From: Brevinematales bacterium
Lineage (GTDB): Bacteria > Spirochaetota > Brevinematia > Brevinematales > Thermospiraceae
NCBI GenBank assembly: GCA_026417555.1
Contig: JAOADA010000002.1
Location: forward strand, 234,244-298,243
Direction: 5' to 3'
DNA length: 64,000 nt
Shown: piece by piece, positions 2,451-3,755 of the stretch
Layout: every line of letters begins with the position of its first letter
How positions within the stretch are numbered: position 1 is the first letter of the stretch
Translations under genes and position numbers: made by a program
Notes under the pieces: model-generated
Told to the model about the DNA's origin: nothing
Seen by the model: only the letters and a program-made list of their open reading frames with translations
Database searches by the model: none

Positions 2451-3755
2451 TTACTGTCCTCCTCCCAAAAGGATAAGAGTATTGGTGGAACGGGCAAGAA
2501 TAGCCTGACGACTTGCTGTTTGTCCATAGCAGTTTGTTTGGTAAGGATCTGCTCCTCGGGCGAGAAGATATTCTACAATGTCCTTATGTTGACAGCGTAC
2601 AGCCTCCATAAGAGCTGAATACCCATATATGTCTTGAGTATTGACCTTTGCTCCCGCCTCCACAAGAACCCTGACAATGTCTTTATGGCCTCGTTGAGCT
2701 GCTATGATAAGAGGTGTCCACCCATATGGATCCCTCTCCTCTGGTGAAATTCCCTTTTTTAAGAGTTGTTTCACGACTTCTCCATGCCCCCAATATGCCG
2801 CCTCAAAAAGGGGAGACCATCCCTTGGTATTGGTGGTGGCAAGATGGATCCCCCTTTCAATAAGCCAAAGGGCTAATGGCACATCCCCTCTCTTGAGGGC
2901 ATAGTGGAGGGCTGTGTTTCCCTCAGCATCTTGTTTTTTCCACTCATACATATTGGTAAACATATTTCGCCAGAGATACCAGTCTTGTCTCTGCAGGGCT
3001 TCAAAAAGTGAGGGGGTTTTCTTGCTTTCAATGAGCATGCGTTGATGCGCTAATTTTCCCGGCGAATGTCGAAGAACCTCCACCAGGGCCCGTTTGTTCT
3101 GTTCCCAGAGGGCATGGTGCGGAATTCGAGGCACCTCAAGGGTAATCATCGGGATCCCACGTTCAAGGCAATATTGTCCAAAGGAGCCGGGTGTCTCATA
3201 GTCAAGCTCTGCCACAAGAGGGTAATGGTTGTAGTACTGCATTCGGCGAGCGATTTCCCATACATCCCCCTCAACCATCATACAGTGGAGTTGGGCATGG
3301 ATCGTTACTACAAGAGAGGGTGCATACTTTTGAATCAACTTTATCAAGGCCTTTGTTTCTGGTTCGCTGGCGGCTTGTCTTCCTGGATAGTAGGCTTTTT
3401 TGTGATAATTGGTGGTAAAACTGCTGGTGGGAAAATTTCGATTGATATCTACTCCCCTTGCATTCCCTCGTGTTCCTCGTCTTATTCCATCGGGGTTGGC
3501 CTTGGGGACAATAACCACCCGTATGTTTTTGCGTATCTCTGGCGTATTGGCTACCATCCTGCGAAAGCGAGTTAGAATCTCTACTCCCTGTCGCTCATCC
3601 CCGTGGATTCCTCCCACAAAGAGGAGTGTTTCATTCCCCCTCCCATAGACAAAGGCCTCAATTTTTCTTCCCCGAACACTTTTGCCGATTACCTCGGCGA
3701 AGGTGTTTTCCAAAAAAAATACCATGAAAAGGAGACAGGCTATTTTTTCTCTCAT
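2451..3755 (-). CDS. Exported M14-family carboxypeptidase/amidase fused to ankyrin repeats
   Basis: Protein of 434 residues in three parts. Residues 1-20 form a signal peptide (MREKIACLLFMVFFLENTFA). Residues about 25-235 are an M14 zinc peptidase: H51 and E54 in GGIHGDE, the substrate-binding NARGVDINRNFP, the third zinc ligand H153 in TIHAQLH, and the catalytic glutamate E207 in ITLEVPR. Residues about 275-425 contain four to five ankyrin repeats (GNTALHYALKRGD, GWSPLFEAAYWGH, GWTPLIIAAQRGH, GYSALMEAVRCQH). The peptidase part is most like the bacterial peptide amidases that trim murein peptides (MpaA type), so an envelope or cell-wall substrate is likely. The start was set at the Met beginning the signal peptide; the frame is open 29 codons further upstream but that extension looks non-coding. 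Ankyrin repeats fused to M14 are unusual. Confidence 0.88.
   Translation of the reverse strand: MREKIACLLFMVFFLENTFAEVIGKSVRGRKIEAFVYGRGNETLLFVGGIHGDERQGVEILTRFRRMVANTPEIRKNIRVVIVPKANPDGIRRGTRGNARGVDINRNFPTSSFTTNYHKKAYYPGRQAASEPETKALIKLIQKYAPSLVVTIHAQLHCMMVEGDVWEIARRMQYYNHYPLVAELDYETPGSFGQYCLERGIPMITLEVPRIPHHALWEQNKRALVEVLRHSPGKLAHQRMLIESKKTPSLFEALQRQDWYLWRNMFTNMYEWKKQDAEGNTALHYALKRGDVPLALWLIERGIHLATTNTKGWSPLFEAAYWGHGEVVKQLLKKGISPEERDPYGWTPLIIAAQRGHKDIVRVLVEAGAKVNTQDIYGYSALMEAVRCQHKDIVEYLLARGADPYQTNCYGQTASRQAILARSTNTLILLGGGQ

Follow-up and report, generated by a model that had tools for sequence, protein, structure and literature searches.

An M14 zinc peptidase with a predicted signal peptide and a C-terminal ankyrin domain in one genus of Brevinematales

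The closest described systems are the MpaA-like peptidases on the one side and the periplasmic ankyrin proteins on the other. MpaA, the murein tripeptide amidase represented by the structures from E. coli (5hxd) and V. harveyi (4axv), has a common fold with the peptidase part of the protein studied here (Z of 28.3 and 26.7, respectively), with about 30-35% identity and all catalytic residues in common; in contrast to MpaA, our protein has a putative signal peptide and an ankyrin tail and is without an 11-column stretch of the E. coli enzyme. On the ankyrin side, Bd3460 of Bdellovibrio is a periplasmic protein that binds and inhibits two peptidoglycan endopeptidases, covering the active-site cleft sterically in the complex described in PMC4686830, and the best non-predator BLAST match named for it there is a Leptospira ankyrin protein encoded in an operon with a protease. 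As presented there, Bd3460 is an ankyrin domain that is exported and acts together with a wall peptidase, as we propose for the M14-ankyrin protein, but it is a separate protein that acts in trans on serine DD-endopeptidases, whereas here the ankyrin domain is fused to a zinc peptidase. According to PMC7567364, an ankyrin gene and katE, which encodes a periplasmic catalase, share an operon in Leptospira, and two other bacteria need ankyrin-repeat proteins for their catalase activity. Pseudomonas AnkB and Leptospira ank-katE are thus cases of an ankyrin protein serving a periplasmic enzyme, although, unlike the M14-ankyrin fusion, both are separate proteins with a catalase partner (PMC7567364).

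The gene was identified in a window of 64,000 nucleotides (the whole stretch of DNA that was analysed), belonging to a 2.04 Mb Brevinematales (Spirochaetota) assembly of 33 contigs. The first-pass annotation had placed it correctly at 2451-3755; since no strand had been given, we add that it lies on the minus strand. The plus strand at the same position was rejected, as several stops interrupt the frame. Our genus sample consisted of three genomes, namely the window's own (G000), G001, which is perhaps Thermospira aquatica, and G002, a closely related MAG ("Brevinematales bacterium isolate Ch60") in which the gene also occurs. The G001 and G002 orthologues are 69% and 71% identical to the whole gene, respectively. 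An upstream TTG start would give a longer frame of 463 aa; however, the ATG at 3755 is the best-fitting start, because upstream of it the orthologues no longer resemble one another, and what they have in common is limited to a basic, hydrophobic beginning whose last residue before EV is A or G. The features are as follows (all on the minus strand).

2451..3755, minus: whole gene, probably exported M14 peptidase with ankyrin repeats, 434 aa (open reading frame and translation; orthologues in G001 and G002)
3696..3755, minus: predicted signal peptide, residues 1-20, cut likely between NTFA and EV (by eye; model helix 2-14; start shared in three orthologues)
3051..3695, minus: M14 (MpaA-like) catalytic domain, residues 21-235 (Pfam; NCBIfam MpaA below cut-off; PDB sequence matches 5hxd and 4axv; structural match 5hxd)
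3594..3605, minus: H51 to E54, presumably the first two zinc ligands (invariant in 33 rows)
3438..3470, minus: R96 to N105-R106, presumably the substrate carboxylate side (invariant)
3297..3299, minus: H153, presumably the third zinc ligand (invariant)
3135..3137, minus: E207, presumably the catalytic glutamate (invariant)
3012..3050, minus: linker, residues 236-248 (inside low-confidence 231-270, block pLDDT 55-68; 46% identical to either orthologue)
2454..3011, minus: ankyrin domain, with a tentative N-cap 249-274, four repeats 275-406 and C-cap 407-434 (Pfam; model pLDDT; layout by eye)

Both domains were recognized by Pfam, with 78.7 bits against a cut-off of 21.6 for Peptidase_M14 (PF00246, best stretch 21-160) and 112.5 bits against 27.3 for Ank_2 (PF12796), so that neither can be regarded as a chance match. 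The best NCBIfam model is MpaA (NF007897) at 135.8 bits, which does not reach the equivalog cut-off of 157. Membership in M14 is further indicated by the zinc ligands and the catalytic Glu (H51, E54, H153 and E207), all present; these residues, like R96, N105 and R106, do not vary in an alignment of 11 sequences, an E. coli MpaA among them, or across 33 spirochaete rows. We take their roles from family M14, in which a His, a Glu and a second His bind zinc, a Glu is catalytic, and an Arg and an Asn-Arg pair form the carboxylate side. The nearest PDB sequences to the M14 part are the MpaA proteins of E. coli (5hxd) and V. harveyi (4axv), and 5hxd also tops the structural comparison (Z 28.3, rmsd 1.9, 211 residues), in which the rows listed span residues 12-237 only and so speak neither for nor against a match to Bd3460. 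Other M14 carboxypeptidases appear at Z 25.6-27.6 among the best 50 fold matches; with general carboxypeptidases reaching 27.6, the margin of MpaA over its relatives is small. The sequence, the model and the two further genomes support the initial reading of a probably exported MpaA-like zinc peptidase with all catalytic residues and an ankyrin tail. The 11-column stretch of E. coli MpaA lies near the substrate side and is missing from the M14-ankyrin protein and from all other rows of the 11-sequence alignment, so that the specificity may differ from that of the E. coli enzyme. A loop with a critical Tyr and Asp, to which this stretch may correspond, is named in PMC6403190. In a tree of 34 M14 rows, the three fused proteins form one clade (99/99), the neighbours of which are unsure (66/48), and E. 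coli MpaA is a long branch.

At the N-terminus, a signal peptide was predicted by eye as MREKIACLLFMVFFLENTFA followed by EV, with a +1 residue other than Cys. The three orthologues have in common a basic and then hydrophobic start with A or G before EV, and the signal, already claimed in the first-pass annotation, is clear by eye in this protein and in both others. Judging from these starts, the M14-ankyrin protein is probably exported.

The linker is the least conserved mature part. For the tail, four to five repeats had been proposed, a fair count given that by eye we distinguish an N-cap, four full repeats and a C-cap. The AlphaFold2 model built on the 33-row alignment has a mean pLDDT of 88.4 and a pTM of 0.64, with ten-residue blocks at 85-98 over 21-230, 55-68 over 231-270 and 89-98 over 271-410; the pLDDT is 59-68 over 249-270 and 35-55 over 421-434. 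By these values, confidence is high for the four full repeats but low for the N-cap and for the end of the C-cap. A model from three rows gave a poor M14 part (pLDDT 55.1). Among other matches, Foldseek aligned the ankyrin part with designed ankyrin proteins. The model thus consists of two confident bodies with a weak joint, and it speaks neither for nor against a clamp of the tail on the active site.

For the pair G000 and G001, identity amounts to 75.8% in the M14 part (dN 0.175) and to 67.7% over the whole ankyrin part (dN 0.279), with dS above 2 and thus far higher than dN in either part; synonymous changes are near saturation and only the sense of the difference between dN and dS counts. 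For G000 and G002, the corresponding identities are 80.5% in the M14 part and 77.5% over residues 249-386. On these sequence comparisons, the M14 and the ankyrin domain are both under purifying selection. In the G002 orthologue (L008, about 1433-1525), an insertion flanked by a 28-base direct repeat breaks the ankyrin frame, so that this genome may be able to do without the tail; as the break is known from one MAG, however, it may also be an assembly error.

The distribution of the fusion was surveyed in 392 Spirochaetota genomes with the M14 part as query (E of 1e-12 or better), which gave 61 matches in 52 genomes. Three of the 61 are the fusion, found in all three genomes of the genus. Among the 58 other matches, no ankyrin match was obtained at 1e-4 in the 39 loci that were read, and the open frames of the remaining 19 (207-297 aa) are too short for both domains; the ten other genomes of the order all lack an M14 match at E 1e-12. 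Within the sampled Spirochaetota genomes, the fusion therefore appears confined to one genus, and it is not the common architecture against which the first-pass annotation had cautioned, a statement that applies to this phylum. Six exact peptide patterns from the M14 part of one protein, scanned against genome contigs, matched only the Ch60 contig, a scan that says little on other phyla. Plasmids yielded 81 records matching the M14 part, of which the 25 best listed belong to Escherichia, Citrobacter and Enterobacter and are annotated mpaA where the gene is annotated. The M14 part also matched 24 phage records, with no ankyrin annotation among the 20 listed, and 94 relatives on viral contigs, where none of the 80 loci checked had both an ankyrin and an M14 match (tblastn, 1e-4). 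A literature search on ankyrin with M14 or MpaA found no such fusion, and the M14 row of PMC6403190 names LysM, PGB1, LPXTG, SLH, CWB2 and ChW, which we take from that row as partner domains of M14, with ankyrin not among them.

The stand-alone MpaA-like M14 proteins of Spirochaetota are about 30-40% identical over the M14 domain and, unlike the fusion, gave no match to ankyrin among the 39 that were read. Several have a signal-like start by eye, and some are perhaps exported; their frames are of 224-316 aa, except for M14-VanY fusions, three lipoprotein-like chains and one frame of 207 aa. The lipoprotein-like M14 proteins (L110, L111 and L112; 405-418 aa) have a C-terminus that by eye resembles a carboxypeptidase regulatory domain. 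The M14-VanY fusions occur in other spirochaetes, three identified by Pfam (L022 in G042, L029 in G018 and L109 in G083) and one by sequence only (L108 in G065). Like the M14-ankyrin protein, they have two domains, one of them a related M14 domain, and look exported by eye, but their second domain is a D-Ala-D-Ala carboxypeptidase, whereas the ankyrin tail is a binding module. The zinc motif in the M14 domain of L109 looks degraded, perhaps marking a pseudo-enzyme domain.

Ankyrin repeats had been called rare on periplasmic peptidases, which fits the sampled spirochaete M14 relatives; exported ankyrin proteins as such, however, look common in the order. The ten ankyrin ORFs examined, from ten Brevinematales genomes, are best matches and not a random sample, and by eye nine of them start signal-like or lipobox-like (L002, L011, L012, L013, L015, L016, L019, L024 and, less clearly, L017), so that a periplasmic ankyrin protein seems ordinary for the order. 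The eight scanned by Pfam at 1e-5 (all save L002 and L021) had ankyrin models only. An Ank_2 search at 1e-5 gave four ankyrin genes in G000, the M14 fusion included; by eye, one of the other three is lipoprotein-like and one has a signal-like start, both with counterparts in relatives, and the third, on contig C33, has no clear signal. These proteins hint at an envelope ankyrin set in Brevinematales, and an ankyrin domain fused to a peptidase, as far as seen, does not appear to be ordinary in the order. A second ankyrin protein (L090, 1207-2880) has a signal-like start and counterparts in L088 and L089, and is thus present in all three genus genomes; its long C-terminal part had no Pfam match at 1e-5, a scan that covered L090 and not L088 or L089.

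Downstream of the gene, the window encodes a CopZ-like protein (2104-2307, minus) and HPr; divergent from it are a DUF58-like gene and those for a response regulator and a helix-hairpin-helix protein (names by eye). The CopZ-like protein, just downstream, is by eye a small heavy-metal-binding protein. Most of this gene order is retained in G002, and the G001 orthologue is found at another place, adjoining a glycosyltransferase and CsoR, CopZ and CopA-like genes. An operon partner kept across the three genus genomes was sought and not found.

What we computed here comprises the domain identity, the catalytic residues, the fold, the occurrence of the fusion in the genus and the purifying selection on both domains. 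Our best explanation, which we hold tentatively and at slightly under an even chance, is that the enzyme cuts wall peptides in the periplasm and is positioned by its ankyrin tail. Sec would export the protein to the periplasm, judging by eye from its start; the M14 domain would cut the gamma-D-Glu-mDap bond of cell-wall peptides, either the free tripeptide or stem peptides; and the tail would be a protein-binding arm placing or holding the enzyme beside an envelope partner. The wall-peptide substrate is suggested by the family and by the mDap markers of the genome: DapF is above cut-off in all three genus genomes, and the MurE of the window's genome scores 471.2 bits (cut-off 257.3) and has DNPR, the motif of the mDap type. 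DapF and a DNPR-type MurE fit an mDap peptidoglycan, and the M14-VanY fusions support a wall-peptide role of the related M14 domain; together, the three point to wall peptides without proving them. Docking by the tail, which the first-pass annotation had also put forward, is proposed from the general behaviour of ankyrins. Against this explanation we count the missed MpaA cut-off, the missing 11-column stretch, the lack of a steady partner gene and the broken frame in G002, as well as the fact that E. coli MpaA is cytoplasmic, whereas the M14-ankyrin protein seems exported.

As the main rival, which we consider rather doubtful, the tail may act in cis, covering, restraining or stabilising its own M14 domain, so that the protein would be a self-regulated wall enzyme. 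Such a role is suggested by Bd3460, which inhibits wall endopeptidases by lying across the active-site cleft (PMC4686830) and of which the fusion would be the fused counterpart, and by ankyrins tied to catalase, as in the katE operon described for Leptospira (PMC7567364); however, with the low-confidence joint and a pTM of 0.64 no fixed packing is predicted, and three fused sequences are too few for a contact signal. A more specific form, to our mind quite improbable, is a wall peptidase that carries its own ankyrin regulator, in which the tail would switch or tether the periplasmic zinc peptidase in cis, as a fused housekeeping counterpart of Bdellovibrio-style inhibition in trans. The M14 domain might instead be an exported carboxypeptidase for nutrient peptides or an envelope protein and not for wall peptides, since it falls below the MpaA cut-off, is without the E. 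coli stretch and finds general carboxypeptidases at Z up to 27.6; but the MpaA structures are its best sequence matches, one of them being also the best structural match, and VanY is the fusion partner of related M14 domains, and we regard this as unlikely. Action on a host or prey protein, as put forward in the first-pass annotation, is highly improbable: ankyrin effectors of intracellular bacteria exist, and the NCBIfam matches include Dot/Icm ankyrin effectors, but these are all far under cut-off (best 61 bits against 600) and look like generic ankyrin similarity, no effector, toxin or secretion gene was seen by eye beside the peptidase among the ORFs in the window's first 16 kb, and the cultured relatives are, so far as is known, free-living.

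Returning to the periplasmic wall-peptide peptidase placed by its tail, the pairing itself looks real and preserved by selection; each of the two parts is ordinary, and their combination is unusual. If the tail is a passive tether only, the fusion would be a minor domain shuffle. To our knowledge, the control of wall-cutting enzymes in spirochaetes, in a periplasm that also holds the flagella, has been little studied, and a peptidase with a protein-binding tail would be a ready bait for an envelope partner. The M14-ankyrin fusion would thus link two known themes, the periplasmic ankyrins and the wall peptidases.
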